DNA of 64,000 bases. Origin: an uncultured Desulfuromonadales bacterium (GTDB lineage: Bacteria; Desulfobacterota; Desulfuromonadia; Geobacterales; Pseudopelobacteraceae). The DNA lies in NCBI GenBank assembly GCA_903868145.1, contig CAIPTY010000058.1, positions 1 through 64,000 of the forward strand, in the 5' to 3' direction. The position numbers were made by a program, and so were the translations under genes. The first letter of the stretch is position 1. Each line of letters starts with the position of its first letter. Positions 161-43,538 of this stretch are shown here, in pieces. The notes beneath the pieces are model-generated. The model saw only the letters and a program-made list of their open reading frames with translations, made no database searches and was not told the origin of the DNA.

Positions 161-231
161 GAGGCCGACCAGAAAAACTGGAGGCCAGGCAGGAACGGGC
201 TTGCATCGCCGTTGTTGTCTGGCCTTTTTTT
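161..231 (+). promoter_or_regulatory. Sulfur-operon leader element, copy 1 (hairpin overlapping a terminator)
   Basis: A small hairpin, CCAG-AAAAA-CTGG (169-181), is flanked by GA on the left and A on the right and enclosed by GGCC (163-166) and GGCC (183-186). The right-hand GGCC is also the 5' arm of an intrinsic terminator, GGCCAGGCA paired with TGTCTGGCC, followed by seven T (to 231). The enclosing stem and the terminator are therefore mutually exclusive, as in attenuators and riboswitches. In this copy the shared arm is GGCC where the other four have GGTC, and the distal terminator arm changes to match. Ligand unknown; four further copies are in the window. Confidence 0.8.
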
Positions 232-257
232 ATTACACTCACACAAGGAGCATTCTC

Positions 258-2513: not shown

Positions 2514-2527
2514 AAAGGAATATGAAA

Positions 2528-3040: not shown

Positions 3041-4057
3041 ATGATACAAAAACTGATTTTTAAACCAGCAGGAGTTTTACTGGGAGCACTGTTACTTACC
3101 GGGTCACTCGTCACTTCCGTTTTTGCCGAGGTTAAAGAAGTACGCCTTGCCAAGCAGTATGGTCTCAGCTATCTGTCCATGATCGTCATGGAGGAGCAGA
3201 AGCTGATTGAGAAACATGCCAAAAAGGCCGGCCTTGGCGACATCAAGGTAAGCTGGAATACCTTCAGTTCCGGCTCGGTCATGAATGATGCCCTCCTGTC
3301 GGGAAGTGTCGATTTTGCCTCCGGCGGCGTGGCGCCGTTGATCAAGTTGTGGGACAAGACAAAAGGCGAAGTCAAGGGTGTCGCAGCCATTGATACGATC
3401 CCGCTCTACCTCAATTCCAACAATCCGGCGGTCAAAAGCATCAAGGATCTGACCGACAAGGACAAGATCGCCCTGCCGGCGGTTAAGGTCTCTATTCAGG
3501 CGGTAACCCTGCAGATGGCAGCGGCAAAACTGTTCGGACAGAAAAATTATGAGAAGCTGGACAAGCTGACAGTCTCCATGAAACACCCGGACGCCCAGGC
3601 TGCGCTCCTGTCACCCAAGTCGGAAATTACCGCCCATTTTGCCAGCCCGCCGTTCATGTTTCAGGAGCTGAAAGATCCCCGTGTCCATACGATTGTCAAC
3701 TCATTTGATCTCCTCGGTGGTCCGCATACCTTTGACGTGATCTGGGCTCACGGGCGGTTTCATGACGCCAACCCCAAAACGTACGCTGCGGTATATGCAG
3801 CGCTTGAAGAGGCAATTGCCTTTATCAACCGGGATAAGCGCGCAGCAGCCGAATTGTATATCAAAGCCTCCAAGTCAAAAGAGTCGGTGGAGGTCATCTA
3901 TGGTTATCTGACCAAAGAACCGATCAGCTACACCACTACCCCGCTCAATATCACCAAATACTCTGACTTCATGTACCAGACCGGCAGCATTGCGAACAGG
4001 CCGAAGAACTGGAAGGATCTCTTCTTTTCCAATATTCACGGCAAGCAGGGGAGCTAG
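3041..4057 (+). CDS. ABC importer substrate-binding protein, TauA/SsuA (NitT/TauT) type
   Basis: The 338-residue periplasmic binding protein begins with a Sec signal peptide (hydrophobic core to about residue 28, ending SVFA|EVKE) and continues with the two-lobe NMT1/SsuA fold, which in this family binds sulfonates, nitrate, thiamine precursors or similar small ligands. Conserved blocks include GSVDFASGGVAP and the later AALLSPKSEITAHFASPPF. It precedes its own ATPase and permease and forms a complete importer. The sulfur context favours an organosulfur ligand, but the ligand itself cannot be read. It lacks the Cys-Cys motif found in four other binding proteins of this window. Confidence 0.85.
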   Translation: MIQKLIFKPAGVLLGALLLTGSLVTSVFAEVKEVRLAKQYGLSYLSMIVMEEQKLIEKHAKKAGLGDIKVSWNTFSSGSVMNDALLSGSVDFASGGVAPLIKLWDKTKGEVKGVAAIDTIPLYLNSNNPAVKSIKDLTDKDKIALPAVKVSIQAVTLQMAAAKLFGQKNYEKLDKLTVSMKHPDAQAALLSPKSEITAHFASPPFMFQELKDPRVHTIVNSFDLLGGPHTFDVIWAHGRFHDANPKTYAAVYAALEEAIAFINRDKRAAAELYIKASKSKESVEVIYGYLTKEPISYTTTPLNITKYSDFMYQTGSIANRPKNWKDLFFSNIHGKQGS

Positions 4058-4059
4058 CG

Positions 4060-4842
4060 ATGGGCAGTGCAGCCCCCCTGCTGGATGTGCAGGGTGTTAC
4101 CATACAGTACAAAACCAGCGCGCAACTGGTGACCGCCACCTGGAGGGTCGGTTTTCAGGCAGACCGTTCCGATCGCCTGGTTCTGCTGGGTCCCTCCGGT
4201 TGCGGAAAGTCCACATTACTCAAGGCGATTGGCGGCTATCTGACGCCAACCGAGGGGGAAATTACGCTGAGCGGTCGCACCATCAGTGGACCGGGACCTG
4301 ACAGGGTCATGGTTTTTCAGGAGACAGATCAACTGCTTCCCTGGAAGACGGTGCTGCAGAATGTGGCCTTCGCCCTGACTGCCAGCGGCAGGGCATCCGG
4401 ACAGAATGCTGATGAACAGGCCATGATTGCCATTCGCACCGTCAAGCTGGAAAAGTTTGCCGACTCCTATCCCCACACCCTGTCAGGCGGTATGAAACAG
4501 CGGGTCGCCATCGCGCGCTGTCTGGCGATGCAGCCGGAAATTGTCCTGATGGACGAACCGTTTGCAGCGCTGGATGCTTTGACCCGTCAGCAGATGCAGG
4601 AAGAGCTGCTGGAGTTGTGGAGTCGGTCACAGTTTACCCTGATTTTCGTCACGCACTCCATCGAAGAAGCGATTCTGCTCGGAAACCGCATAGTGCTTCT
4701 CTCACCTCACCCCGGGCAGGTGAAGGAAATTATGGACGTGAATCTGGATGATCCGGGCAACCGTTTTCACGGTCGTTTCGACGAACTGCGGGACACGATC
4801 CATCGGGTGCTGTTCAAGGATGTGGGCGATTATGTCATTTGA
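4060..4842 (+). CDS. ABC importer ATPase, TauB/SsuB type
   Basis: A 260-residue ATP-binding subunit with all ATPase motifs: Walker [12 protein letters not shown]-loop VMVFQETDQ, signature LSGGMKQR, Walker [14 protein letters not shown] and switch histidine in FVTHSIEEA. It powers the importer formed with the preceding binding protein (2 nt gap) and the following permease, whose start lies inside the end of this gene, so the three are translationally coupled. Cytoplasmic, membrane-associated. Family assignment is firm and substrate assignment is not. Confidence 0.92.
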   Translation: MGSAAPLLDVQGVTIQYKTSAQLVTATWRVGFQADRSDRLVLLGPSGCGKSTLLKAIGGYLTPTEGEITLSGRTISGPGPDRVMVFQETDQLLPWKTVLQNVAFALTASGRASGQNADEQAMIAIRTVKLEKFADSYPHTLSGGMKQRVAIARCLAMQPEIVLMDEPFAALDALTRQQMQEELLELWSRSQFTLIFVTHSIEEAILLGNRIVLLSPHPGQVKEIMDVNLDDPGNRFHGRFDELRDTIHRVLFKDVGDYVI

Positions 4843-5737
4843 AAAAAGTGCCGCCATAACCCGGGATCTATCCGGGATTTCTCGTGAGGCTACCGCTTTC
4901 CGGTCGCATGGACAGCCAACGGACCAGGCTATTTCGGAAATCGTCCGCCCGCTGTCACGTGCGGAAAAAATCTGGAATCAGGCGATTGTACGCAAATCGC
5001 TTATTCTGGTGCTACTGGCGATAGCGTGGCAGGTGTATGCCCAGCAACTCAACAATCCGCTGATGTTTCCGACGTTCACCGATACAACTGCCGCGCTCTG
5101 GAATGCTTTTACCAAAGGTGAACTGGGAAGTCGCGTACTCGTATCGCTCAGGATTCTATTAAGCGGCTATGGTATCGGCGTCCTTCTGGCAACCGTGCTG
5201 GCCGCGCTGGCCAACGCTACCCGTCCGGGCAATGACCTTCTGGAAGTTTTGACCGCCATGTTCAACCCGTTGCCGCCCATCGCCCTGCTGCCCCTTGCGC
5301 TGCTCTGGTTCGGGCTTGGCAACGGCAGCATCACCTTTGTTCTGGTTCACGCAGTCCTCTGGCCGGTGGCGCTCAGCACCCACTCAGGTTTTGCGTCCAT
5401 CAGCGGCACGATCCGCATGGTCGGGCGCAACTACGGGCTGACCGGTTTGCGCTACCTCCTGCATATTCTCATTCCAGCGGCCTTCCCGGCCATCCTGACC
5501 GGCCTCAAAAACGGCTGGGCCTTTGCCTGGCGAACCCTGATCGCCGCCGAACTGGTCTTCGGGGTCAGCTCAGGTTCAGGCGGCATCGGCTGGTTTATCT
5601 ACGAAAACAAGAATCAGCTGGAAATTGCTTACGTCTTTGCCGGCCTGCTGACGGTCATTGCCATCGGTGTCACCATGGACAGCCTGTTCCGGCTGGTTGA
5701 GCGGCGCACGATCAATCGATGGGGGATGAAGTTTTGA
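4832..5737 (+). CDS. ABC importer permease, TauC/SsuC type
   Basis: The 301-residue inner-membrane subunit has a cytoplasmic N-terminus of about 45 residues and six hydrophobic segments. It carries the coupling-loop region of BPD-type permeases (near LTGLRYLLHILIPAAFP) and the family pattern LIAAELVFGVSSG. The ATG at 4832 overlaps the ATPase stop by 11 nt and has AGGA upstream; a longer frame from 4748 would duplicate ATPase sequence and is not used. It completes the importer 3041-5737. Confidence 0.88.
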   Translation: MSFEKSAAITRDLSGISREATAFRSHGQPTDQAISEIVRPLSRAEKIWNQAIVRKSLILVLLAIAWQVYAQQLNNPLMFPTFTDTTAALWNAFTKGELGSRVLVSLRILLSGYGIGVLLATVLAALANATRPGNDLLEVLTAMFNPLPPIALLPLALLWFGLGNGSITFVLVHAVLWPVALSTHSGFASISGTIRMVGRNYGLTGLRYLLHILIPAAFPAILTGLKNGWAFAWRTLIAAELVFGVSSGSGGIGWFIYENKNQLEIAYVFAGLLTVIAIGVTMDSLFRLVERRTINRWGMKF

Positions 5738-5765
5738 TATCCATGCGTCGCAACAGGCAGCCATC

Positions 5766-7130
5766 GTGATCTCGGAACAACCATACGATGTTGCAGTCAT
5801 TGGCGCAGGGGCCAGCGGAACGCTTGTTGCGAGCCAATACAGCAGGCGCGCTGCACCCGGAGCGCGCCTGGCGCTGATTGGTTCCGGCAGTCGCCCGGGA
5901 CGCGGGGTTGCGTATGAAACACCCTACCTGGCCAACGTGCTGAATGTGCCGGCGGGCAACATGAGCGCCTTTCCTGATGACAGGCTGCATTTTCTCCGCT
6001 GGCTTTCCACCCGTATGGCCGGTGCCGGTGCCAGAACATTTGCGCCGCGAAAACTATATGGCGATTATCTGGCCGGGATTTTAGCGGAAACATTGCACGT
6101 GGGAACTGTCCAGTTGATTGATGCCACTGCCACAAACCTCAGCCTCAACAATAAAGGCTGGACCGTGCACCTGGATGACGGGACAACCATCCAGGCCTGC
6201 TCGGTTGTGCTGGCAATCGGCAACGCGCTTATTCCTTCTGTTCCGCTGGACGTCAGCAGTATTGCTCACTTTTATCACGGCAATCCGTGGGGGGCGGATG
6301 CCCTCAAGGGATTAGCCCGCACCGCACCTGTCTTGCTGATCGGCACCGGTTTGACGATGGTTGATGTGGCCCTGTCTCTGCGGGAGACCGGGCATGAAGG
6401 GCCAATCCATGCAGTTTCACGACATGGAAGATTGTACCATGAGCACAAAACCTACACGCAGCAACCGTTACAGGAAATTGACGACAGATTCAGATCCCCT
6501 CTTGCAGCACTGCGCAGTGTCCGTTCGGCAATTCTACAGGTGATGAATGCCGGAGGAGACTGGCGGGCCGTGATTGACAGTCTGCGACCCCACACTGCGC
6601 AGATCTGGCACTCGTGGTCATTGCGTCAACGAGCCTCCTTCCTGCGCCACGCCCGAAATCTGTGGGATATTCATCGTCATCGTATGGCTCCCCAGGTCGC
6701 AACCCATCTCAACCGATTGCTGGCTGACGGTATACTTCGCATCCACGCCGGTCGTCTGGTCAAAGCTGAAACGGACGGGGCACAGGCAAAAATAACCATT
6801 CGTTCCTCACGCACCGGGAAAAGTTGTGTTGTGCCGGTAGAGCGGGTGATCAACTGCACCGGTCCCGCTCGCAACTTCACCACCACCGATATCCCGCCGA
6901 TTGCGGGTATGCGTGATCAGGGTTGGCTGACTCCCGACCAACTGCGTCTTGGCATCGAGACCGACGAGGACGGCCGGCTGATCGGGGCTGACGGTACAAG
7001 CATAAACACCCTTTTTGCTATTGGTCCGCTGCGCATACCTGACCTGTTCGAATCCATAGCAATGCCGGAAATACGTGTTCAAGCCGCTGAACTGGCAGGA
7101 TTGCTGACATCAAAGGAATTGAATGATTAG
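5766..7130 (+). CDS. FAD/NAD(P)-binding oxidoreductase
   Basis: The 454-residue protein opens with a dinucleotide-binding motif (VIGAGASGTLVA) and matches the FAD-NAD(P)-binding family that has the conserved block GRGVAYETPYLANVLNVPAG. A second nucleotide-binding region is near residue 190 (VLLIGTGLTMVD). These are cytosolic flavoproteins, some of which are N-hydroxylase-like or disulfide-reductase-like, and the substrate is unknown. The start is a GTG at 5766, because upstream frames are closed. It follows the permease by 28 nt and overlaps the next gene by 8 nt, so it belongs to the copy-1 sulfur operon and may oxidise or reduce an imported sulfur compound (inference). Confidence 0.8.
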   Translation: MISEQPYDVAVIGAGASGTLVASQYSRRAAPGARLALIGSGSRPGRGVAYETPYLANVLNVPAGNMSAFPDDRLHFLRWLSTRMAGAGARTFAPRKLYGDYLAGILAETLHVGTVQLIDATATNLSLNNKGWTVHLDDGTTIQACSVVLAIGNALIPSVPLDVSSIAHFYHGNPWGADALKGLARTAPVLLIGTGLTMVDVALSLRETGHEGPIHAVSRHGRLYHEHKTYTQQPLQEIDDRFRSPLAALRSVRSAILQVMNAGGDWRAVIDSLRPHTAQIWHSWSLRQRASFLRHARNLWDIHRHRMAPQVATHLNRLLADGILRIHAGRLVKAETDGAQAKITIRSSRTGKSCVVPVERVINCTGPARNFTTTDIPPIAGMRDQGWLTPDQLRLGIETDEDGRLIGADGTSINTLFAIGPLRIPDLFESIAMPEIRVQAAELAGLLTSKELND

Positions 7131-8244
7131 CAAAGAACGGCTGTACCTGAGCTTCATGGAGCTGTGCGCCATTGATTCGGAACCGAGCGGAGAGCGCCTG
7201 ATGGCGGACCGCTTGAAGGAACTTCTGGTATTGCAGGGTTTCACCGTCATTGAAGATGAGACTGCCGAGAAAATTGGAGGTAACGCGGGAAATCTCATCG
7301 CTCGCCTGAAAGGCACCAGCCGGGCCGAGTCGATCCTCTTCTCGTGTCACATTGACCGGGTTACCCCAGGGATTGGTGTTAAACCTCGCATCGAAGGTGA
7401 TTATATCATCAGCGATGGCACAACCGTCCTCGGTGCCGATGATGCCGCCGGACTAGCGGCAATTCTTGAGGCGATCACAGCGATAAATGAGTCGGGACTA
7501 CCTCACGCTCCCATCGAACTTGTTCTGACAGTGGCCGAGGAGCTGGCGCTTACCGGAGTCAAACATCTCGATACCGGACAGCTTGCTTCCCGATACGGTT
7601 TTGTGCTGGATGCAGGCGGGCCGGTGGGAGAAATCGTACTTCAGGCACCGGAACAGGTTAAATTTAAGGCGGTTTTCCATGGACGCAGCGCCCATGCCGG
7701 GGCCGCACCAGAAGAGGGGGTATCAGCCATCCAGATCGCCGGGGTTGCCATCAGCCGAATGAACCTACTACGCATCGACCCCGAATCAACCGCCAATATC
7801 GGTAGTATCTCCAGCGTAGGGCCGAGCAATATCGTGCCGGATCGCTGTGAACTGAACGGAGAAGCCCGATCACTTGAACCGGCCAAATTGAGATTTCAGA
7901 TTGATGCCCTGACCGAGGCCATGGCGTCTTCGGCAGCGGAGTTTGCTGGTTCGGTAGACATAACCTTTCTGCCATGCTACCCGTCATACAAGCTGGCGGA
8001 AGATTCGGAACCGGTCCGACGAGCCGCACTGGCCGCGTATCGGATCGGTGCGCCGGTCAGCTTCAAGACTACCGGTGGAGGTTCGGACGCGAACATCTTA
8101 AATAACAGGGGGTTGCCGACCGTCGTATTGAGCTGCGGTTACGAGCATGCCCATACCAATGCAGAACGGATTTCGCTTGAGCAGCTGGCGCTCTTGGCGG
8201 AGTGGGTGCTGGCGATTATCGACCCTGAAGTGATTCGCTTGTGA
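7123..8244 (+). CDS. M20-family metallopeptidase (PepT-like)
   Basis: The 373-residue enzyme has the two-zinc M20 layout: a metal histidine in CHIDRV, the bridging aspartate block GADDAAGLAA, the catalytic base pair EE in TVAEELALTG, the dimerisation domain with HGRSAHAGAAPEEG, and a C-terminal histidine in HAHTNAERIS. Members hydrolyse peptides or N-acyl amino acids in the cytoplasm. AAGGA lies 6 nt before the ATG, which overlaps the upstream stop. As last gene of the copy-1 operon it may release cysteine or methionine from a conjugate (inference). It converges on the minus-strand ferredoxin gene 28 nt away. Confidence 0.88.
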   Translation: MISKERLYLSFMELCAIDSEPSGERLMADRLKELLVLQGFTVIEDETAEKIGGNAGNLIARLKGTSRAESILFSCHIDRVTPGIGVKPRIEGDYIISDGTTVLGADDAAGLAAILEAITAINESGLPHAPIELVLTVAEELALTGVKHLDTGQLASRYGFVLDAGGPVGEIVLQAPEQVKFKAVFHGRSAHAGAAPEEGVSAIQIAGVAISRMNLLRIDPESTANIGSISSVGPSNIVPDRCELNGEARSLEPAKLRFQIDALTEAMASSAAEFAGSVDITFLPCYPSYKLAEDSEPVRRAALAAYRIGAPVSFKTTGGGSDANILNNRGLPTVVLSCGYEHAHTNAERISLEQLALLAEWVLAIIDPEVIRL

Positions 8245-8271: not shown

Positions 8272-8544
8272 CTACGGGTTTGCCAACGCAATCTGGGGAT
8301 GTTTTGTTTTCAGCCGTTTACTCGCCTCGTCGACGTATCCCGTCATCGCAATGCCCCCCATAACGCACGATTCAGCACATCTGCCGCATCCAACGCACTC
8401 ATCAACTGCCGTCACCCATGGGACAAATATCCCTTCTTCTCCGCCAGGAAACATCTGGAGACACTTTTTGGGACAGCTTCGGACACAGACCGTACACCCC
8501 TCGCAGTATTCAACGATGATCCATGGTAGCACCACCGGTTTCAT
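8272..8544 (-). CDS. 2[4Fe-4S] ferredoxin
   Basis: A 90-residue cytoplasmic electron carrier. It has two complete cluster motifs, CEGCTVCVRSCP near residue 14 and CVGCGRCAESC near residue 50, both CX2CX2CX3C, so two [4Fe-4S] clusters are expected. It could deliver low-potential electrons to one of the flavin-barrel proteins of its operon or to the nitrogenase-like enzyme elsewhere in the island (inference). Its ATG overlaps the stop of the upstream membrane-protein gene. It is the last gene of the minus-strand operon headed by leader copy 5. Confidence 0.9.
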   Translation of the reverse strand: MKPVVLPWIIVEYCEGCTVCVRSCPKKCLQMFPGGEEGIFVPWVTAVDECVGCGRCAESCVMGGIAMTGYVDEASKRLKTKHPQIALANP

Positions 8545-9242
8545 TTTTCGGAACCGGCCCAGAATTGATTATCGGGGGCTTCGCTGAATCTGGCACCGAT
8601 CGATGTTTGCGTTTTGTAGCAATGCACAGCATAGCGACAGAAGAAGAAATCTACCGTAAGTATTCCCACTGCAAATCGGAGTATGGTATATCCGAGCGTA
8701 GCTTTCCCCGTCAATAGCGCTATAATTCCAGCACCATAGACGAGCAGCGACAACAGGCTGAGGATCCATACCGCGTGCCATGTTACGCGTGTTCTGGTTT
8801 CCTGTGTTACATCGGCAACTTTACCGATCGTAAACCAGAAAAACCCGGCGGAAAAAAATCCGGCGAGACCTGTCGCGAGGAGTGAAATGATCTGAAGACC
8901 GCCCAACGAGAGGGGCACACTGGCTAGAGCGAAAAACAGTGCCAATCCGCCACTGATACGAAGTCCTTTAAAATGAGACCCCATATCTTTGATCCCTTCA
9001 TAACAGGCCTTCAGCAGGATGACCGCACCCACATACGTAAGCAGTGGTGGAAATGCCGGCAGAAGCGGCGGAATATGCCCGATTGCTCCATGACTGTACG
9101 AACCGAGCCAATCAGGAAACCAAAGTCCCAGAGTTGCAGGAACCGCACCGATTTCAAGCCAGAGGGCAACCTTGTCTTTAGTCCAGCGTGGACGGATGAA
9201 CCCTGAGATCGCCTTCTTCTTTTTTACCGTTATGCTACTCAT
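8541..9242 (-). CDS. Uncharacterised integral membrane protein
   Basis: A 233-residue protein with about six hydrophobic segments after a basic N-terminus (SSITVKKKKAISGF). No catalytic motif or known family is evident to me. The ATG at 9242 is chosen because GAGGA lies 8 nt upstream, and the longer frame to 9263 adds seven residues without a ribosome site. It overlaps the ferredoxin gene by 4 nt (ATGA) and follows a flavin-barrel gene, so it could anchor an electron-transfer or transport step for the operon's sulfur compound. Function unknown. Confidence 0.7.
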   Translation of the reverse strand: MSSITVKKKKAISGFIRPRWTKDKVALWLEIGAVPATLGLWFPDWLGSYSHGAIGHIPPLLPAFPPLLTYVGAVILLKACYEGIKDMGSHFKGLRISGGLALFFALASVPLSLGGLQIISLLATGLAGFFSAGFFWFTIGKVADVTQETRTRVTWHAVWILSLLSLLVYGAGIIALLTGKATLGYTILRFAVGILTVDFFFCRYAVHCYKTQTSIGARFSEAPDNQFWAGSEK

Positions 9243-9281
9243 AGCTGTTGTCCTCTTCTGCATCGAGTGTATGATGCGGCA

Positions 9282-9692
9282 TTATTTGGGTGGCCCGTTA
9301 TCGAGCCAGCGACTGGTTTCAAACTGTATGACCTGTTCGTATGGAAGCACATCAAGGCGCAATCCCGCTTCGGGCCCCGGCTTTGTACTGTAGATTTCAT
9401 CGACAGCCACAACGAGTATGTTGTCTTCAAGCCGACCGGCACCTTTAAACTGATACGCAGCGCGAATACTGCCGATTCCACCTGGCCCGAAAGCAACCCT
9501 CGGGTTCTCTGTTACCTGCGATCTGATCAGCGCGACCTGTTTTTCGCTAAGCTTAAATCGTATTGTGTTGTCATCATCCGCGGTTGCTGAATCGACTACG
9601 ACCACTGCGGGGATGCCCGATTTTGAAGCCACGGCGATATGTGCGCCGAGGCCGGTGAGCCAGTTCTTCATTCTGGGAGTTACGTGTGCCAT
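9282..9692 (-). CDS. Pyridoxamine-phosphate-oxidase-like flavoprotein
   Basis: The 136-residue product has the short PNPOx-like split-barrel form: an early strand pair (GAHIAVASKSGIPAVVVV) and the later block NPRVAFGPGGIGS, followed by AAYQFKGAGRLEDN, typical of the strand that lines the flavin site. Proteins of this fold bind FMN, F420 or haem, and the ligand cannot be told here. It is one of three such genes in a row (9282-10657) in a leader-controlled operon with an ATC-hydrolase-like protein, which suggests a reductive step in thiol or thiazoline metabolism. Substrate unknown. Confidence 0.7.
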   Translation of the reverse strand: MAHVTPRMKNWLTGLGAHIAVASKSGIPAVVVVDSATADDDNTIRFKLSEKQVALIRSQVTENPRVAFGPGGIGSIRAAYQFKGAGRLEDNILVVAVDEIYSTKPGPEAGLRLDVLPYEQVIQFETSRWLDNGPPK

Positions 9693-9719
9693 TAGTGTCT
9701 CCTTGGATGGTATTTGTTT

Positions 9720-10202
9720 TTAAAGTGAAATATTTGCCCCCGCATTTTCAGGAGCAAAATCGGTTATCGTCTCGACCCGGAGGGTTATGACACCCCGCTG
9801 CACGAGACTCGGCGGCCGGATATCGGGTGGAACTTCGGATGGAGGTTCTTTCAGCGCCCAGTCACCCCATTCATCCAGAGCATCCTTCGCGCGCAGCCCT
9901 TCCCATACATAATCGTCTGGAAGCCCTTCCTGAAGTATTGTCGCAGAGCCGGAAAAGGTCCACGTCCGCCCTTTTAGCGGATGTGACATCGTGATGACGC
10001 CGTGGGGATTTTCCAAAAGGTTCACCCGGGTTTTTTGGGCGAACATCTCCGCTATCAGGATATATTCGTCTTTAAATAGTGTTACGAAGCGCTCTCCCAC
10101 AACATTCGGGTTGCCGTTTTTTGATGACGTGGTGAGATACACGACAGCACCACCCGCACCTACCGTCTTTAACGCCTTTTTCATTTCTCCGCTCAGTTTC
10201 AT
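9720..10202 (-). CDS. Pyridoxamine-phosphate-oxidase-like flavoprotein
   Basis: A 160-residue split-barrel protein with the blocks VVYLTTSSKNGNPNVVG, EYILIAEMFAQKTRVNLLEN and RTWTFSGSATIL, the usual order for FMN-binding members. It is a clear paralogue of the next gene upstream, which has FAQKTKVNLNEN at the same place, so the pair arose by duplication and may form a heterodimer. Its start codon overlaps the stop of that paralogue by 4 nt. Cytoplasmic; substrate not identifiable. Confidence 0.78.
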   Translation of the reverse strand: MKLSGEMKKALKTVGAGGAVVYLTTSSKNGNPNVVGERFVTLFKDEYILIAEMFAQKTRVNLLENPHGVITMSHPLKGRTWTFSGSATILQEGLPDDYVWEGLRAKDALDEWGDWALKEPPSEVPPDIRPPSLVQRGVITLRVETITDFAPENAGANISL

Positions 10203-10657
10203 ATCGAAGCCTCCACCAACCGTTCTGGTTTAAAAATAATTACGCCACGCTCGGCAAAGACCGTCGGACGGATCGATTCATCCGCTTCAAGCACCGGTTC
10301 GACTGTGCTATCCCAGTCACCGTAGTGGTTGAGCACGTCCTCAGCCGTTAGACCGAAAATTTTAAACTTTGCAGGGTGCCCCCACTGCACGATATCGGCT
10401 GTCCCCTCCAGGACAATGTTTGTGCCATCTTTTTCAGAGGTAAAGCTCAGCGAAGCATGATGATTCTCGTTAAGATTGACTTTTGTTTTCTGTGCAAAAA
10501 GATCCGGCAGCAAGATCAGTTCGTCATTGACCACATCCGAAAATGGTATCGGCAACAGATTTGTTTTACCGTCCTTCGAGGATGTGGCAAAATAAGTAAT
10601 GAACAGCTCGGGCGATCGGGCTTTCAGTCGTTGCAGCAGCTTTTCTGGTAGTTTCAT
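10199..10657 (-). CDS. Pyridoxamine-phosphate-oxidase-like flavoprotein
   Basis: A 152-residue paralogue of the following gene, with ITYFATSSKDGKTNLLPI, the shared block DLFAQKTKVNLNENHH and the strand GTNIVLEGTADIV. The ATG at 10657 is used because GGAGG lies directly upstream at normal spacing; an alternative frame from 10687 adds ten residues that overlap the upstream gene. The ATG overlaps the stop of the ATC-hydrolase-like gene (ATGA), which indicates translational coupling. Flavin binding is predicted and substrate unknown. Confidence 0.78.
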   Translation of the reverse strand: MKLPEKLLQRLKARSPELFITYFATSSKDGKTNLLPIPFSDVVNDELILLPDLFAQKTKVNLNENHHASLSFTSEKDGTNIVLEGTADIVQWGHPAKFKIFGLTAEDVLNHYGDWDSTVEPVLEADESIRPTVFAERGVIIFKPERLVEASI

Positions 10658-11151
10658 ACTTCCTCCAGGGTGTATTCGAAGGCGCAATACGCATTTCCTT
10701 CAGGGATTGTTTTCGACTGTTGTACGGTAATGTTCGGCATGAGAGCTTTCGCAAAGGGCTCGTCTCGTTTGCAACTGAATGCGATCCCAAGGGTTTCTTT
10801 TCCCTTTGACTGGTACATTTCGGCATATTTGCACTGTAAAACTCGGAACTTGAGGCTTTTTTCCGTCAGATCGTCGAGCACAATATCGAGTCGACCGTCA
10901 CCGCCAAGAATTTTCCAGATTTCATACAAGTCATGCAGGGTGGGATTCGGGTATTGTATCAGAAACAAGGCAGCTGACTTTGCAGCGGCATCATTCACCA
11001 CCTCCTTCAGCAGATCATGCGCGGCATCACTCCCGTAGCGTTTTGTAATCAGATCAACGAATGAGGCGACCAGATCAATCTCGATTGATATTCTCTCAAG
11101 TTGAGATACTGTGGATTCGGGTAAAACTGTTTTTTCAGTCATTGCATCCAT
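10654..11151 (-). CDS. L-2-amino-thiazoline-4-carboxylate hydrolase-like protein
   Basis: The 165-residue product resembles the small ATC-hydrolase family, whose founding member opens a thiazoline ring on the way to L-cysteine. The C-terminal part shows the family pattern: a cysteine-bearing strand (LGIAFSCKRDEPFAKALMP), then QSKTIPEGNAYCAFEY. The N-terminus is helical. The ATG at 11151 is preferred over a TTG at 11187 that would lie inside the leader terminator; an ATG at 11142 is also possible. As first gene behind leader copy 5 it links that operon to cysteine or thiol metabolism. Its real substrate is unknown. Confidence 0.65.
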   Translation of the reverse strand: MDAMTEKTVLPESTVSQLERISIEIDLVASFVDLITKRYGSDAAHDLLKEVVNDAAAKSAALFLIQYPNPTLHDLYEIWKILGGDGRLDIVLDDLTEKSLKFRVLQCKYAEMYQSKGKETLGIAFSCKRDEPFAKALMPNITVQQSKTIPEGNAYCAFEYTLEEV

Positions 11152-11185
11152 CGTTTCGAAAGTATTTTTAAGCCATATTGAACAC

Positions 11186-11237
11186 AAAAAAAGAGGTCAA
11201 GAGCTGTAACTCTTGACCTCCGGTTATCCGGTCAGTC
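11186..11237 (-). promoter_or_regulatory. Sulfur-operon leader element, copy 5 (minus strand)
   Basis: Read on the minus strand: GACT, GA, then the hairpin CCGG-ATAA-CCGG, A, and GGTC, which is also the 5' arm of the terminator GGTCAAGAG paired with CTCTTGACC, followed by seven T. Compared with the CCAG/CTGG hairpin of the other copies, both sides changed, so pairing is kept. It precedes the ATC-hydrolase-like operon and is the shortest of the five copies. Confidence 0.8.
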
Positions 11238-11241
11238 GTTT

Positions 11242-11269
11242 ATATATAATTTTTATAGGATTTATATTG
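11242..11269. promoter_or_regulatory. AT-rich operator-like repeat (TATAG core) overlapping the copy-5 promoter
   Basis: Half sites ATATATAAT and TTTATATTG flank a 10-nt centre TTTTATAGGA. The stretch is nearly the same as the repeat at 43313-43340. Here it covers the -10 box and the start point, a position typical of repression. Regulator unknown, and no regulator gene lies in the window. Confidence 0.45.
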
Positions 11270-11289
11270 TATGTTTTGATTTCTGTCAA
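11261..11289 (-). promoter_or_regulatory. Predicted sigma-70 promoter for the minus-strand sulfur operon
   Basis: On the minus strand, a perfect TTGACA (11284-11289) and TATAAA (11261-11266) are separated by 17 nt. Transcription would start near 11254 and reach the leader element about 17 nt later. An AT-rich operator-like repeat overlaps the -10 box. Confidence 0.7.
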
Positions 11290-11320
11290 GAGTTTTTTTC
11301 ATGCTGAAAAATATTCGAGT

Positions 11321-11349
11321 TTGTCATCTTCACGTTCGCATGCTATCGT
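11321..11349 (+). promoter_or_regulatory. Predicted promoter of the antitoxin gene
   Basis: TTGTCA (11321-11326) and TATCGT (11344-11349) are 17 nt apart, ahead of AAAGGAG and the ATG near 11381. It diverges from the minus-strand sulfur promoter at 11261-11289. Confidence 0.5.
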
Positions 11350-11380
11350 TAACTCCAATTCAATCTAAAGGAGAATCGTC

Positions 11381-11599
11381 ATGCAGACTATGCGACAGGT
11401 GTTTACCGATGCCCTTGCATTACCACCGATAGAACGGGCGGAGTTGATCGACGAACTATTCTTCAGCTTCGACCGCAGTAACCGCAAACGACTTGACCAA
11501 CTATGGGCAATAGAAGCTGAAAGCCGGATTGATGCCTTTGAACGTGGTGACTTTGTTGCTATTCCTGCGGATGAGGTCTTTGCCAACCTCAATAAATGA
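11381..11599 (+). CDS. Addiction-module antitoxin, RelB/StbD-like short family
   Basis: The 72-residue protein matches the short putative addiction-module component family: helical N-terminus followed by LPPIERAELIDELFFSF and a C-terminal toxin-binding tail (AIPADEVFANL). Such antitoxins neutralise a RelE/ParE-type partner. AAAGGAG lies 8 nt before the ATG. The expected toxin gene starts in the overlapping ATGA but is degraded (11596-11725), so the antitoxin appears to be an orphan. Confidence 0.75.
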   Translation: MQTMRQVFTDALALPPIERAELIDELFFSFDRSNRKRLDQLWAIEAESRIDAFERGDFVAIPADEVFANLNK

Positions 11600-11725
11600 A
11601 TCCCGTACGAGCCGTCAAATTTTTTCCTCAAGTACAAAAGAAACAATCATCTCTTCATAGTTGCTGTCATTCATCTCAAGCGAGAACCTGACTCCTGGCA
11701 AAATAATCTTCCGAGTGGAGAGTAA
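11596..11725 (+). pseudogene. Remnant of a RelE/ParE-type toxin gene
   Basis: The ATG overlaps the antitoxin stop (ATGA), as in intact modules, and the first residues MNPVRAVKFF are toxin-like. The frame then shifts. The +1 frame from about 11624 encodes KRNNHLFIVAVIHLKREP, which resembles the C-terminal strand of RelE toxins, and ends in TAA at 11723-11725. Only about 40 codons remain of the usual 90-100, so a large internal part has been deleted and the product should be inactive. Confidence 0.65.
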
Positions 11726-11783
11726 ACCCTCTTTCTGTAATCCCTAAAACAACTACTAAAACTATAGAAATAAAAATTTTACA

Positions 11784-11812
11784 TTGACTCCTCACGCTAA
11801 CCCGTTTAGAGT
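11784..11812 (+). promoter_or_regulatory. Predicted promoter of the corrinoid/methyltransferase operon
   Basis: TTGACT (11784-11789) and TAGAGT (11807-11812) are 17 nt apart. The same -35/-10 pair occurs at 19460-19489 with 18 nt spacing. The motif TATAGA lies 15 nt upstream of the -35 box (11763-11768), as it does at two other leader-bearing promoters. Confidence 0.6.
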
Positions 11813-11828
11813 GGGAAAAATTGAACTC

Positions 11829-11891
11829 GGCTGACCAGAAAAACTGGAGGTCAAGGAAGAGCTAGCGCTCACGCCTTGACCTCTTTTTTTT
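11829..11891 (+). promoter_or_regulatory. Sulfur-operon leader element, copy 2
   Basis: GGCT, GA, the hairpin CCAG-AAAAA-CTGG, A and GGTC (11829-11852) are followed by the terminator GGTCAAGG paired with CCTTGACC and eight T (to 11891). GGTC is shared between the enclosing stem and the terminator. An inner GAGC/GCTC stem lengthens the terminator. It precedes the binding-protein and corrinoid-methyltransferase operon. Confidence 0.82.
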
Positions 11892-11932
11892 CGCACATCA
11901 AAGCATCACCATACCAAAAGGAGGATCACCGC

Positions 11933-12889
11933 ATGAAAAAAGCAGTCAAGTTTGCAGCAGCACTCAGCGCAGTAGCAGCCATCTCCATAGGAATTTCCGG
12001 AGTTGCCACTGCAAAAAAGGACGAAGCCCCGGCCAGGATTGTCGTATCTGATGCCAAGACCACCCATCACCTGAACCTGTACGTGGCACAGGACCTGGGG
12101 TACTTCAAAAAACGCAACCTGGATGTATCCATCGTGGAAGCAAAAGAACTGTCCGCCGCCCGTGATGCAGTGGTATCAGGTCAGGCCGATGTATTCTGGT
12201 CCTGCCCGACCGTCGCCATTGCCGCTGTCGCAAACGGTGCGCCGATCAAGGTTATCTCGCAGGTCAAAACCCCCTGTACCTCAGTGCTGGTTGTCAAACA
12301 GGATTCACCCATCAAGACCTGGAAGGATCTGAAAGGCAAGCATATCGCCGGTATCTCGCCAACCTGCGAAGCGGTCATCGCCTACGAAAAAAAGGCTCGT
12401 GAGAACGGCGGTGAATACATTCTTGAAAAACTGGCCGGCGGACCGGCTATTGCAGCCCTTGAGGCCGGCAAGGTGGACGGAGCCATCCTGGAAGAACCGC
12501 ATGTCAGTATCGCCGAGCTGAAGGGGTACAAGGTTGTCCTGCGAGATGCCGCGTCCAATGTGCCGTGCCGCACGATCAATGCCCGCACCGGCTACCTTAA
12601 AGAGAACTCTGAGGCGCTCAAGCGCTTCATTGAGGCCATCAAGGAGGCTAACGCCTTTATCCTCAAAGATCCATCCGGCAAACAGGTGGTGGAAATTGCC
12701 AAAAAATATACCGGCGCTCCCGAGAATGCCATCAAGCATGGCAATGGCCGCCTCAAGTTCACCACCGTTATTCAGGAAAAAGGGCTGAGCGCACTGGCCG
12801 ATGAACTGGTATCACTGAAAAACATCAAGGAGAATCCCGGCACCAGACTGTATGCCGCGGAATTCAAGGGCATTACCTGGGGTAAATAA
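11933..12889 (+). CDS. Lone ABC substrate-binding protein (NitT/TauT type)
   Basis: A 318-residue periplasmic binding protein with a signal peptide ending near residue 26 (SGVATA|KKDE) and the NMT1/SsuA fold (LNLYVAQDLGYFKKRNLDVS, then VSGQADVFWSCPTVAI). No ATPase or permease adjoins it, so it must share those of another importer in the island. The mature part has several cysteines (FWSCP, KTPCTS, SPTCEA, NVPCRT); the last occupies about the place where four other binding proteins here have a Cys-Cys pair. AAGGAGG precedes the ATG. It overlaps the corrinoid protein by one base, which ties the ligand to methyl-transfer chemistry (inference). Confidence 0.85.
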   Translation: MKKAVKFAAALSAVAAISIGISGVATAKKDEAPARIVVSDAKTTHHLNLYVAQDLGYFKKRNLDVSIVEAKELSAARDAVVSGQADVFWSCPTVAIAAVANGAPIKVISQVKTPCTSVLVVKQDSPIKTWKDLKGKHIAGISPTCEAVIAYEKKARENGGEYILEKLAGGPAIAALEAGKVDGAILEEPHVSIAELKGYKVVLRDAASNVPCRTINARTGYLKENSEALKRFIEAIKEANAFILKDPSGKQVVEIAKKYTGAPENAIKHGNGRLKFTTVIQEKGLSALADELVSLKNIKENPGTRLYAAEFKGITWGK

Positions 12890-13545
12890 TGCAGAATCGT
12901 AATCTGACAGCGGACGATCATTTCAAAGAGCTGGCAGAGGCGGTCGTGGAGATGGATGAGGAGCGGGCGGTAGCAGCCGCCCACGCCTCACTGGAATCCG
13001 GCATCGACGCCTACGATGCCATTCAGCAGGGGCTTTCGGCCGGCATGGAACGCGCCGGGCAGCTTTTTGAAGAGGAGGAGTATTTCATCCCGGAACTGCT
13101 GATGTGTTCCGATGCCATGTACGCCGGTCTGGAGGTGCTCAAGCCGCATTTGAAAAAGACGGCCGGAAGCAGGGGGACCGTAGTCATCGGTGTTATCGAG
13201 GGGGATACCCACGATATCGGCAAGAACATGGTTCGCATCATGTTTGAAACCGGCGGGTTCAACGTCATCGATCTGGGGCGCGACGTGCCACCGCAACGCT
13301 TTGTCGATACGGCAATTGACTCCAACGCCGATATCATTGCACTCTCGACACTGATGACCACCACCATGGACGGTATGGGCACCGTGGTCAGACTGTTGAA
13401 CGAGGCGGATATCCGCCAGGGGATCAAAGTCATGGTTGGCGGCGGCCCGATATCACCAGGATTTGCAAAGCGAATCGGTGCCGACGGCTATGCCGTTAAT
13501 GCCGCTGAAGCGGTCAAGGTTGCCCGGGAGCTTGTTGCGATATGA
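12889..13545 (+). CDS. Corrinoid (cobamide-binding) methyl-carrier protein, MtaC/MtbC type
   Basis: A 218-residue carrier that shuttles a methyl group on cobalt between two methyltransferases. Residues 1-90 form the four-helix cap domain, and the B12 domain follows with the signature EGDTHDIGKNMV, in which His108 is the lower-axial (base-off) ligand. The SxL (LSTLMTTTMDG) and GG (VGGGPIS) contacts for the nucleotide tail are also present. The start overlaps the preceding stop. Genes for three MtaA/UroD-type proteins and a reactivase follow, so a complete cobamide module is encoded. Which methyl donor is used (methylthiol, methoxy or methylamine) is not visible. Confidence 0.9.
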   Translation: MQNRNLTADDHFKELAEAVVEMDEERAVAAAHASLESGIDAYDAIQQGLSAGMERAGQLFEEEEYFIPELLMCSDAMYAGLEVLKPHLKKTAGSRGTVVIGVIEGDTHDIGKNMVRIMFETGGFNVIDLGRDVPPQRFVDTAIDSNADIIALSTLMTTTMDGMGTVVRLLNEADIRQGIKVMVGGGPISPGFAKRIGADGYAVNAAEAVKVARELVAI

Positions 13546-13566
13546 AACCATGAAGAACTTATGAAA

Positions 13567-13642
13567 TGGTGGGCACAGTTGGGATCGAACCAACGACCTG
13601 CCGATTAAGAGTCGGCTGCTCTACCAGCTAAGCTATGTGCCC
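13567..13642 (-). tRNA. tRNA-Lys (anticodon CUU)
   Basis: On the minus strand the 76-nt gene has acceptor arms GGGCACA and TGTGCCC, an anticodon stem GCCGA/TCGGC with loop CTCTTAA (anticodon CTT), a T loop GGTTCGATCC and an encoded 3' CCA (13567-13569). It lies against the direction of the methyltransferase operon, between the corrinoid-protein gene and the first methyltransferase. Confidence 0.93.
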
Positions 13643-13694
13643 AGAGGTTGGAAAGCTAATCCAATTTGAAGCATCTGTCCAATTGATTTTTTGA

Positions 13695-14795
13695 ATGAGA
13701 AACGATATGTCGATTCAATTTCCCGTACAGACAGATGTCATGTCACCCCTGGCCCGCCTGGCGGCCTACAGTCGGGGTGAGTCCATTGACCGACTCCCCT
13801 GTGTTCCGATTATCGGCAACACCGCCGCTCGGGTGATCGGGGTAAAGGTTTCGCAATTTCGCGGCAACGGGCATGTAATTGCCGAAGCCCAGACCGCCTC
13901 ATACCGAAAGTTCGGCTATGACGTAATCCGGGTTTTTACTGATCTGTACACACTGGCCGAAGCCATGGGGGCTGTCGTGCGCTACCCGGAAGACGAGACA
14001 GCCTATCTGGCAGCGCCTGCCCTTGATTCGATTGATGACATAGCACGATTGCAGCCCGTCGAGCCTCACAAAAATGGCAACCTCCCCTGCCACCTGGAGG
14101 CGATGAAGCGGGTTATTGAGGCGGTGGGCCAGGAAGTGCCGGTGACCGGTGCGCTCACCTGCCCCTTTACCACCGCCTCCTTTTTGATCGGCGCAGAAAA
14201 TCTGGTACGACTGGTCATCAAAAATCCCGAGGCGGTTCACCGTCTCTGCGAAGTGGCCCTGGAGTCGGCTATTCGCTATGCTACCGCCATTATCGAAACC
14301 GGATGCACACCCAGCCTTACCGATCCCATGTCGTCCAGCACCGTTATCGGGCCGCGGCAATTTCTGGAGTTTTCCTATCCCTACCTCAAGAGACTGATCG
14401 ATTTCATCCACAGCCACGACAAAAAAGTCACGCTGCACATCTGCGGCAAGACTGAAAAGATCTGGCAAGCCATGGCAGACGCCGGTGCTGACTGCATCAG
14501 CATCGACAACGACGCCAGACTGCGCGGGGCCGTGGAGAGTGTTGGCGACAGACTGCGCATCATGGGTAATGTCCACCCTTCGGAGATAATGCTGCAAGGG
14601 ACAACGGCAGATGTGAGACAGGCGGTTTTCGACTGCGTCGCCCAGGCAGGCGCAAGCCCCAGAGGTTACATTATCGCATCGGGCTGCAGCCTGCCCACCG
14701 AGACACCCTTTTCCAATATTCAGGCCATGATGGATGCGGCTTGTGAGATCGGCTGGCCGATCAGTCCTGACCTGCTTTCACGGGGGCAGATATGA
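13695..14795 (+). CDS. MtaA/UroD-family cobamide methyltransferase
   Basis: A 366-residue protein of the uroporphyrinogen-decarboxylase superfamily, branch MtaA/MtbA/CmuA, which moves methyl groups to or from a corrinoid protein or a thiol. The zinc site is visible: HxC in LHICGK (His248, Cys250) and a distal cysteine in ASGCSLP (Cys331). N-terminal blocks such as LAAYSRGESIDRLPCVP are typical. The start at 13695 has no strong ribosome site; an ATG at 13707 is possible. The stop overlaps the next paralogue. Role as substrate-side or acceptor-side methylase cannot be told from sequence. Confidence 0.85.
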   Translation: MRNDMSIQFPVQTDVMSPLARLAAYSRGESIDRLPCVPIIGNTAARVIGVKVSQFRGNGHVIAEAQTASYRKFGYDVIRVFTDLYTLAEAMGAVVRYPEDETAYLAAPALDSIDDIARLQPVEPHKNGNLPCHLEAMKRVIEAVGQEVPVTGALTCPFTTASFLIGAENLVRLVIKNPEAVHRLCEVALESAIRYATAIIETGCTPSLTDPMSSSTVIGPRQFLEFSYPYLKRLIDFIHSHDKKVTLHICGKTEKIWQAMADAGADCISIDNDARLRGAVESVGDRLRIMGNVHPSEIMLQGTTADVRQAVFDCVAQAGASPRGYIIASGCSLPTETPFSNIQAMMDAACEIGWPISPDLLSRGQI

Positions 14796-15814
14796 GCAGT
14801 ACAAGCCCCAAGGATCGATTGCTGGATACCCTGGCAAAAAAACGGGTTGACCGTCCACCGGTCATCTGTACCGGGGGGATGATGAATTCCGCCATCGTCG
14901 ATGTGATGACCAAAACCGGGCACACGCTGCCGGAAGCTCATTTCGAGGCAGGACGCATGGCCGATCTGGCAGCCGGTATTCATCACGAGACCGGGTTTGA
15001 GAACCTGGGGATTCCCTTCTGCATGACGGTCGAAGCTGAAGTTCTGGGCAGTGAGGTTGATTTCGGATCGCTTGCCTGCGAACCGAAGATAGCCCGTGAA
15101 CTTTTTCCATCGGTGAAAAGTGTTGTCTACCGGGATATCAGCTCGATGCTGCAGGTCGGCCGTATCTCGCAGGTGGCACGCGCTGCAGAACTGCTGGCAC
15201 TGCGTCACCCCGATCAGCCGGTTATCGGCAGCCTGACCGGTCCGGTCAGTACGGCGGCTTCGCTGGTTGAGCCGCTGCAGTTTTTGAAAGAGCTGCGCAA
15301 AGAGCGGGAATCTGCTCATCGGGTTCTGGAGTATGTCAGCAATTTTCTGATCGGGTTTGCCAGGGTATTGGTTGACAGCGGCGCAACAGTCATCTGCATC
15401 GGTGATCCGACCGCCACGGGAGAGATACTGGGGCCGCGCATGTTTGACGAGTACGCCGTAACCTATCTCAACAAGGTTATCGATGGCATTCATGCCACGG
15501 GAGTTCCGGTGCTGGTGCATATCTGCGGCGAAATGAAGGCGGTCAAACCCTCCATCCCCCTGCTGCACTCCGATGCCATCAGCGCCGACGCATTTGTCAA
15601 TCTGAAGCTGCTCAAACAGGAGTATTCACAACTGACCACCATGGGCAACCTGAGCACCATCCTGCTGGAGAGCGGCGACCCTGAAAAGGTGATCCACAGG
15701 ACGGAAACACTGCTTCGAGAAGGTATCGACATCATTTCACCGGCCTGCGGATTGAGCACATCCACGTCGCTGGACACCATCCGGGCCATGACCGACACCG
15801 TAAAGGAAGCCTGA
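14792..15814 (+). CDS. MtaA/UroD-family cobamide methyltransferase
   Basis: A 340-residue second member of the MtaA/UroD superfamily. It opens SPKDRLLDTLAKKRVDRPPV and keeps the zinc ligands in LVHICGE (His243, Cys245) and SPACGLS (Cys319). It diverges from its neighbour at 13695, which suggests a different methyl donor or acceptor. It overlaps that gene by 4 nt and is followed after 1 nt by the reactivase, so it is firmly part of the corrinoid operon. Confidence 0.85.
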   Translation: MSSTSPKDRLLDTLAKKRVDRPPVICTGGMMNSAIVDVMTKTGHTLPEAHFEAGRMADLAAGIHHETGFENLGIPFCMTVEAEVLGSEVDFGSLACEPKIARELFPSVKSVVYRDISSMLQVGRISQVARAAELLALRHPDQPVIGSLTGPVSTAASLVEPLQFLKELRKERESAHRVLEYVSNFLIGFARVLVDSGATVICIGDPTATGEILGPRMFDEYAVTYLNKVIDGIHATGVPVLVHICGEMKAVKPSIPLLHSDAISADAFVNLKLLKQEYSQLTTMGNLSTILLESGDPEKVIHRTETLLREGIDIISPACGLSTSTSLDTIRAMTDTVKEA

Positions 15815-15815
15815 C

Positions 15816-18325: not shown

Positions 18326-18328
18326 AAC

Positions 18329-19540: not shown

Positions 19541-19604
19541 GACTGACCAGAAAACTGGAGGTCAAGACAGAGCGATACCGCTCAAGGTCTTGACCTCTTT
19601 TTTT
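19541..19604 (+). promoter_or_regulatory. Sulfur-operon leader element, copy 3
   Basis: GACT, GA, the hairpin CCAG-AAAA-CTGG (loop one base shorter), A and GGTC are followed by the terminator GGTCAAGAC paired with GTCTTGACC and seven T (19598-19604). Here the terminator stem reads AAGAC/GTCTT where copy 2 has AAGG/CCTT, another compensating change. An inner GAGC/GCTC stem is present. It precedes the nitrogenase-like operon. Confidence 0.82.
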
Positions 19605-43436: not shown

Positions 43437-43501
43437 GGCTGACCAGAAAAACTGGAGGTCAAGGAAAGAGCGATTCTGCTCTCAAGCCTTGACCTCTTTT
43501 T
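43437..43501 (+). promoter_or_regulatory. Sulfur-operon leader element, copy 4
   Basis: GGCT, GA, the hairpin CCAG-AAAAA-CTGG, A and GGTC are followed by the terminator GGTCAAGG paired with CCTTGACC and five T (43497-43501). GGTC is shared by both structures. An inner GAGC/GCTC stem occurs as in copies 2 and 3. It precedes the encapsulin operon. Confidence 0.82.
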
Positions 43502-43538
43502 GTATTTCCGGCGCGCCACACCCACAGAGGTTATCGTC

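Follow-up and report, generated by a model that had tools for sequence, protein, structure and literature searches.

What controls the six-gene operon encoded on the minus strand at positions 8272 to 11237 of the window (the whole 64,000-nucleotide (nt) stretch from an uncultured Desulfuromonadales bacterium analyzed herein), and what its products do, is the question raised by this locus. Read from 11237 to 8272, the region comprises a leader followed by six genes of the same direction, whose open reading frames (ORFs) run end to end from 8272 to approximately 11151. Based on the comparative analyses described below, we propose that a new class of antitermination leader, with a core of about 23 nt, runs a sulfur-limitation regulon via a putative sulfur-sensing RNA-binding protein, and that the operon constitutes a lineage-specific ferredoxin/flavoprotein route for organosulfur compounds. 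The parts of this proposal differ in strength, as specified at each step, and taken as a whole it may well hold while falling a little short of being probable.

As read from the letters, a sigma-70-type promoter (TTGACA-17-TATAAA) is located at 11261..11289 on the minus strand and ends 23 nt before the leader hairpin; it is omitted from our promoter scan because the scan admits only second hexamers that end in T. The hairpin, which is the proposed antiterminator, occupies 11215..11237 (minus) and consists of GACT, a GA/A internal loop, CCGG-ATAA-CCGG, and GGTC, its general form being about 23 nt with 4 base pairs (bp), the GA/A internal loop, 4 bp, and an A-rich loop. It scored 61.1 bits with the covariance model, this copy itself having belonged to the training set. 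An intrinsic terminator of 13 pairs followed by a T run overlaps the hairpin (11186..11221, minus), and the leader RNA can form either this terminator (GAGGTCAAGAG...CTCTTGACCTC plus the T run) or the hairpin. Since the 5' arm of the terminator is the 3' strand of the hairpin, the two structures are mutually exclusive. The whole leader was predicted to fold with the terminator at −22.8 kcal/mol (z −4.96), a value reached by none of 200 shuffles, and the leader cut before most of the terminator 3' arm was predicted to adopt the competing hairpin plus a small stem at −15.0 kcal/mol (z −3.76). A plus-strand leader 600 nt away also allows both folds, and a small plus-strand ORF of 72 amino acids (aa), which may be similar to an antitoxin component of an addiction module, lies between the two divergent leaders at 11381-11599.

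Both states were well maintained among related leaders. In alignment A5, consisting of 75 distinct leader sequences selected by covariance model R1 (built from 22 leaders; its E-values are rough), the antiterminator pairing was retained in 97.2% of the cells, with both-sided changes at four pairs and a covariation score unmatched by any of 500 shuffles, and the terminator pairing was retained in 99.3%. Columns 2 and 23 of the outer helix carried GC in 31 sequences, AU in 29, GU in 11, and other combinations in 4; this covariation was not built in, because the outer helix lies outside the structure of R1, which does model the bases themselves. Furthermore, column 23 pairs with both column 2 and terminator column 82, and Watson-Crick pairs were found on both sides in 55 of the 75 sequences; 10,000 shuffles averaged 32.5 and never exceeded 48, a comparison that overstates the significance because the sequences are related. 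The unpaired bases were also conserved, with A at column 20 in all 75 sequences and GA at columns 5-6 in 74. Across 558 kb of loci, a structure scan in which only the GA, the A, the pairings, and the T tail were fixed detected 79 sites, against zero after reversal of the sequence; since the loci had largely been fetched for the leader, no density follows from the 79. The leader is thus characterized by two exclusive helices, both of which are conserved and covarying, as is the hallmark of a terminator/antiterminator leader.

Several observations weigh against this interpretation. The sites are not independent, given that there are several per genome, that tandem leaders share one downstream gene, and that the shuffles ignore kinship, and A1, R1, and A5 all derive from the first sequence pattern, so that some of the conservation was set in advance. 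In addition, the cut fold of the neighboring plus-strand leader was ordinary (−10 kcal/mol, z −1.37, with 21 of 200 shuffles as low), and two of the three genomes of the same genus searched (G067 and G068) contained no R1 match. With these points taken into account, we still consider it highly probable from the comparative evidence that the RNA switch is real. The proposal of the first-pass annotation that the operon is controlled by its leader agrees well with this result, in that the operon appears to be headed by a terminator/antiterminator leader.

The motif might instead be a DNA operator, an imperfect palindrome bound by a sulfur transcription factor, with the terminator being incidental. 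Such a reading would suit the inverted-repeat character of the motif, as well as the Rrf2-family genes found behind the leader in loci L074 and L024 (assigned by Pfam) and L078 and L057 (assigned by similarity to that of L074). However, an overlapping terminator was detected by script after 27 of 31 strict-pattern matches in the 30 returned loci; one of the four script-negative matches (L142) has a terminator by eye and three have none. The center of the motif is asymmetric (GA versus A), the strands of the inner helix are swapped among the sites (CCAG/CTGG, CTGG/CCAG, and CTTG/CAAG), and the covariation extends into the 3' arm of the terminator. We accordingly regard a DNA operator as very improbable.

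The exact leader pattern was found at three places on the contig of the window and in four other genomes among the 138 searched. A pattern scan of genome contigs returned 19 stretches, mostly from Geobacteraceae, Geobacter, Geotalea, Geomesophilobacter, and Desulfuromonadales, with one from Omnitrophota; the matches in L021 and L030, which have no T run, look like chance. The Omnitrophota stretch, a metagenome-assembled genome (L024, 1799-1867, minus), carries a leader with a promoter-like TTGACA and a T run before an Rrf2-family regulator gene. With R1, 77 of the 138 genomes of the order gave matches at E ≤ 0.01, and 69 of the 77 still did so at E ≤ 1e-5; the number of matches per genome (1 to 14) includes opposite strands of the palindromic terminator, so that the ten matches in the present genome correspond to eight places. 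The strict hairpin pattern, in which no terminator was demanded, was counted at 182 places, spread over 64 of 135 genomes with a maximum of 12 per genome, compared with 7 places when it was read backwards. These figures suggest that the leader is present in about half of the genomes of the order.

Beyond the order, a second model (R2) gave matches in 13 of 385 genomes of the phylum, eight of which belong to other orders. By eye, four of these eight (G166, G219, G350, and G488) have the usual hairpin. In G376 (L130 and L135) and G509 (L129) the hairpin is formed with TCAG/CTGA as its inner helix, both bases of a pair invariant in A5 having changed; G473 (L132) has TCAG/CTGA but with AA in place of GA, and G472 has the terminator only. 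Tandem leaders before a single gene were observed at L007 1498-1634, L019 3611-3746 (minus), L081 1914-2045, L085 1967-2116, and L088 1834-2101, some of them with swapped helix sequences such as GGTT/GACC and CTGG/CCAG.

The company of the leader bears on its physiological meaning. Five copies are present in the window and eight in the genome, the latter being same-strand places that scored 37 to 84 bits, with the next best place elsewhere at 15.8 bits. Besides that of the operon, the copies in the window are all on the plus strand. The leader at 163..232 (50.1 bits) heads rhodanese, radical SAM, SsuABC-type, FAD/NAD, and M20 peptidase genes (ORFs 201-8244); that at 11829..11889 (72.8 bits) lies before genes for an SsuA-like protein and a corrinoid methyltransferase; that at 19541..19603 (67.6 bits) precedes NifX-like (19627) and NifH-like (20000) genes, behind which lie SsuABC-type and NifDK-like genes; and that at 43437..43502 (84.0 bits) precedes DsrE-like, type 2A encapsulin, cysteine-desulfurase-like, and serine acetyltransferase genes. 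The sequence pattern also matched at 19544 and 43440, and the copy at 163 was found by the covariance model. The rhodanese ORF as called starts within this last leader, and its real start is probably later.

Two of these clusters resemble described systems. The region 43437-48465 is a type 2A encapsulin operon encoding a DsrE-like protein, an SrpI-like shell protein with a cNMP domain, a cysteine-desulfurase-like protein, and a serine acetyltransferase, with 44269-47582 encoding the SrpI-like shell protein together with a class V aminotransferase. It is akin to the type 2A encapsulin with cysteine desulfurase cargo from Synechococcus, where SrpI and its cysteine desulfurase are reported to be up-regulated by sulfur starvation, but it differs, as far as the available text of that article goes, in the leader in front and in the DsrE-like and serine acetyltransferase genes (PMC8049743). 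The region 12889-31583 encodes a corrinoid protein, three MtaA-like methyltransferases, an AcsV-like activase, NifB-like and NifH-like proteins, and two Oxidored_nitro proteins, the genes being interleaved with those of SsuABC-type transporters. The NifH-like protein of the window exceeded the NCBIfam nifH cut-off (402 versus 394), and the two NifDK-like proteins were far under theirs. This arrangement resembles the type I mlp clusters, some of which contain MarHDK-like genes, and corrinoid methyltransferase clusters with MarHDK-like genes have been linked to methyl-sulfur metabolism; the portion of the article available to us describes neither the present operon nor its leader (PMC10418091).

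Apart from these, a tRNA-Lys (CTT) gene (13567-13642, minus) separates the corrinoid-protein from the methyltransferase genes in the plus-strand cluster. A second sulfur-type cluster with three leaders was found on another contig of the same genome (L072; contig C73, 5000-18388), encoding a radical SAM homologue, an NMT1-type binding protein, a permease, an ABC ATPase, and a NifH-like protein. The window (2522-2974) and L072 (3171-3632) also each encode a protein of about 150 aa; the two are related (39% identity), adjoin radical SAM genes, appear split-barrel-like by eye, and have no Pfam match.

For the 79 sites of the structure scan, the longest ORF starting within 420 nt after each site was taken as the downstream gene, and these genes were grouped by BLAST and representatives named. 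The groups comprised 11 rhodanese-linked genes (five of them through 22-28% identity only), 10 DsrE-like heads of encapsulin operons, 8 ABC-transporter ATPases, 8 NifH-like and 5 NifX-like genes, 4 Rrf2 regulators, 2 permeases, 2 SsuA-like genes, and 2 radical SAM genes, together with gene 1 of the present operon, a group of 4 with no Pfam match, 3 porin-like genes, and 19 further singles that include metK, a serine acetyltransferase, a sulfite/nitrite reductase-like gene, and an NMT1-type protein, as well as an aminotransferase, a serine hydrolase, a methyltransferase, a porin, and unnamed ORFs. The leader precedes metK in L079 (G031) and, outside the order, in L124 (G166); likewise outside the order, it lies before the gene for a PF03601 protein in L125 and, in L127, before that for a TauE/SafE-family protein, which starts 450 nt further downstream, beyond a small intervening ORF. 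The sulfur-limitation reading follows from this company, and the leaders that precede porins, an aminotransferase, or unnamed ORFs count against it. On balance, the operon very likely belongs to a sulfur regulon, and it is likely that both hold together, namely that the leader is such a switch and that the operon is a member of a sulfur-limitation regulon. The sulfur role originally assigned to the operon gained support here, since the same leader heads the rhodanese, SsuA-like/corrinoid, nitrogenase-like, and encapsulin/cysteine-desulfurase operons of the window.

How the switch would be operated was considered from the promoters and the candidate partners. A TTGAC was found within 150 nt upstream of 58 of 78 leader sites, compared with a mean of 10.4 and a maximum of 20 in mononucleotide shuffles, a few of the 58 being the TTGACC of a preceding tandem terminator. 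An ATAG...TTGAC box was found at 25 of the 78 sites (shuffled mean 0.6, maximum 4), which suggests that an additional DNA-binding regulator may act at many of these promoters. A conserved AT-rich box, TATAGAYATTATATTT, was also observed just before the −35 element at 43325-43340 of the window and ahead of leaders in L013, L016, L025, and L029, and looks like a transcription-factor site or an UP-like element.

The terminator/antiterminator anatomy and the sulfur genes would also be expected of ribosome-mediated attenuation, in which a leader peptide would contain many Cys or Met codons. However, an ATG or GTG ORF preceded by a Shine-Dalgarno sequence was found within the 90 nt upstream at only 3 of 78 sites, and, judging from the promoter position, only about 17 nt of RNA would be expected before the operon hairpin. 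Attenuation of this kind is therefore extremely improbable.

The main rival to a protein partner is a tiny riboswitch, in which the GA/A internal loop and the A-rich loop would bind a sulfur metabolite directly. At about 23 nt, the core is smaller than any aptamer known to us. The conservation of the unpaired bases in A5 would fit ligand binding, as would the leaders before metK, since metK is under the control of several SAM riboswitch classes (PMC4239095). Against this, the loop varies in both length and sequence, the distance to the −35 element is variable (mostly 41-110 nt) with no common 5' segment by eye, and no Rfam family matched at the gathering score. A riboswitch is consequently unlikely in our estimation.

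We somewhat favor the view that the leader is worked by a protein rather than a ligand. A putative RNA-binding protein was inferred because leader-peptide ORFs are rare, BglG-type proteins are absent, and no ANTAR protein was detected in one genome (G012). Regarding known partners, a BglG-type protein was rejected, the CAT_RBD domain being found in none of 135 genomes, with 4 of 14 control genomes positive. ANTAR proteins were present in 125 of the 135 genomes irrespective of the leader, and no ANTAR match was obtained in G012, a draft of 99% completeness in which the model matched nine times and the strict hairpin pattern six times; an ANTAR partner was provisionally rejected on this one draft genome. 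CsrA, which might be suggested by a conserved GGA, was not favored either, in that both G are paired in the hairpin and 4 of the 79 sites have no GG in the inner 3' strand (CCAG twice, CGAG, and CAAG). No obvious RNA-binding protein was found among the genes common to the leader clusters, as inspected by eye over 222 ORFs in 15 stretches; the genes in common are for transporters and for nitrogenase-like, cysteine-synthase-like, and encapsulin proteins. The BglG and ANTAR results, together with the lack of the ATAG...TTGAC box at the operon promoter, weigh against the present interpretation. In the protein-dependent scheme, the terminator would win by default, and when sulfur runs short the trans-acting RNA-binding protein would hold the hairpin and allow the polymerase to read through.

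Well-known protein-dependent antitermination leaders include those of BglG/LicT (RAT), ANTAR (NasR and EutV), and HutP, and the present leader is like them in that a short hairpin competes with an overlapping intrinsic terminator and that one type lies before many operons. It differs from the RAT of BglG/LicT in hairpin shape, in addition to the above-mentioned absence of CAT_RBD, and from ANTAR targets, which are paired hexaloop hairpins not seen here. Its mechanism would thus be of a known kind, the antitermination leader, in a new form. Rfam 15 at the gathering score identified only a tRNA in the window and only tmRNA and tRNAs in 16 other loci, and no SAM aptamer family was identified before metK in L079 and L124. 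A permissive Rfam scan of 11150-11940 gave five matches, the best being sau-63, a Staphylococcus small RNA, over the leader (E 0.003; 29.1 bits versus 100 required), with the other four at E 2.4-8.9.

Among elements described in the literature, the SAM/SAH riboswitches, the S-box, and the metXZ element share with the present leader the association with sulfur/methionine genes including metK and the terminator/antiterminator logic; it departs from them in its core of about 23 nt with no Rfam match at cut-off, and the beta-proteobacterial metXZ element differs in having six conserved regions and in lying before metX/metZ (PMC4239095). S-boxes have been reported upstream of metIC and metX in Geobacter (PMC545781). 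A 50-genome survey of narrowly distributed leader RNAs reported five riboswitch candidates from a Geobacter genome; going by the accessible part of that article, the two named Geobacter motifs (yjbM and nifV) are not the present leader, and the other candidates may include it (PMC11109978). An attenuator linked to a sulfonate transporter, described in an article whose available text contains neither Geobacter nor Desulf- (PMC2965389), might be the same leader. No description of the leader or of the gene set was found in the open-licence literature as covered by titles and the starts of abstracts.

As to the operon itself, the first-pass annotation had described a single unit with ATGA overlaps, consisting of an ATC-hydrolase-like protein, three flavin barrels, a membrane protein, and a ferredoxin. 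The single six-gene unit was borne out, with 4-nt ATGA overlaps at three of the five junctions, between genes 1 and 2 (10654-10657), genes 2 and 3 (10199-10202), and genes 5 and 6 (8541-8544); the spacing is 27 nt between genes 3 and 4, and 39 nt between genes 4 and 5, or 18 nt if the upstream ATG of gene 5 (9263) is used. All six genes are on the minus strand. Gene 1 (10654..11151, with the start ATG at 11151 picked by eye) belongs to the ATC_hydrolase family PF14196 as had been expected, scoring 57.2 bits versus the Pfam cut-off of 28.1. Genes 2 (10199..10657) and 3 (9720..10202) encode PNPOx-type split-barrel flavoproteins, with PNPOx_N scores of 28.7 bits, barely over the cut-off of 28.1, and 38.3 bits, respectively, and are paralogues of 36% identity. 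The membrane protein and the ferredoxin were likewise recovered: gene 5 (8541..9242) encodes a protein with four hydrophobic segments in a simple hydropathy scan and no family match in Pfam or NCBIfam, and gene 6 (8272..8544) a 2[4Fe-4S] ferredoxin (Fer4_7, 39.8 bits versus a cut-off of 27).

Of the three flavin barrels, two were thus supported by family assignment, and the third, gene 4 (9282..9692), is probable, with no Pfam or NCBIfam family over cut-off. Its AlphaFold models, built alone and with genes 2 and 3, were poor (pLDDT 45.5 and 47.5). A Foldseek search with the first of these gave, down to PDB rank 35, nearly all flavin, heme, or F420 split barrels or putative oxidoreductases, including HupZ, Rv2074, the Desulfovibrio FMN-binding protein, and one S. 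aureus structure listed twice; the best E-value was 0.018 and none was below 0.001, and for such a low-confidence model the matches can be meaningless according to the warning of the tool. The alignment of gene 4 with gene 3 was weak, its score being reached by 2 of 200 shuffles, and that with gene 2 gave no signal (137 of 200 shuffles as good). Because of the E-value and the low confidence of the model, gene 4 is regarded only as a probable third split barrel.

The enzymes of the operon are rare. Of 395 genomes of the phylum, the present one alone contained gene 4, and gene 1 was found in 2 of 141 genomes of the order, namely the present one and a relative of 24% identity (L004), around which no comparable operon was seen within 3.5 kb. 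In contrast to this rarity, 99 of the 390 phylum genomes searched had matches to the PF14196 family as a whole, with up to nine per genome. In 25 of 30 PF14196 loci with flanks of about 1.5 kb, tblastn detected a gene 1 relative, with approximately 25-38% identity over the aligned stretch, and in none of the 30 did it detect any of the partner genes 2-6. A contig scan for gene 1 relatives gave 49 peptide-pattern stretches, none of which was confirmed; gene 3 had no match in the plasmid collection, and genes 3 and 4 had none in a PDB sequence search. The best PDB sequence match of gene 1, aspartate carbamoyltransferase at E 0.06, was taken as chance. Because the genes of the operon are rare and the partners are absent at the PF14196 loci, the enzyme set seems to have been added to the regulon locally.

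Under the earlier hypothesis of a thiazoline or cysteine-conjugate substrate, opening of the thiazoline ring would convert ATC into carbamoylcysteine, and a reduction would then yield cysteine. The PF14196 assignment of gene 1 and the tie of the operon to sulfur genes through the leader would accommodate such a route, but the family is broad, the relatives of gene 1 are distant and have no partner genes, and ring hydrolysis requires neither ferredoxin nor flavin. Neither Pfam nor NCBIfam named an N-carbamoyl-cysteine amidohydrolase in the operon, and the M20 peptidase gene that adjoins it on the other strand provides no evidence for an ATC route. The thiazoline substrate was therefore not borne out, and with no specific support the route is quite improbable.

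The ferredoxin, the membrane protein, and the split barrels point to reductive chemistry near the membrane, and the PF14196 protein may hydrolyze a ring or bind a ligand. One possibility is that the flavin and ferredoxin genes have no substrate of their own and serve in redox maturation of, or electron supply to, the adjacent corrinoid and nitrogenase-like systems, which carry the same leader and include a corrinoid-activase-like protein at 15816-17483 (AcsV model, 380.5 bits, under the cut-off of 800). The rarity of genes 4 and 1 is at odds with this, given that leaders and NifH-like genes occur together in several relatives, and such a role is rather unlikely. The organosulfur chemistry that we propose, as possible rather than probable, is that the operon products would form a membrane-linked, ferredoxin-fed flavoprotein system, which together with the PF14196 protein would take up an organic sulfur compound after its import and set its sulfur free for use by the cell.

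The regulon proposed here would cover organosulfur uptake, nitrogenase-like reductases, corrinoid methyltransferases, a sulfur-handling encapsulin, and metK. If the proposal is correct, it would provide a handle on the sensing of sulfur shortage in Geobacter-like bacteria, and nitrogenase-like enzymes, corrinoid methyl transfer, and encapsulin sulfur handling would be joined in one regulon. The leader RNA is short, portable, and readily tested, the protein or ligand that works it would add a new regulator, and the genes behind it would offer a genome-wide route to new organosulfur enzymes.

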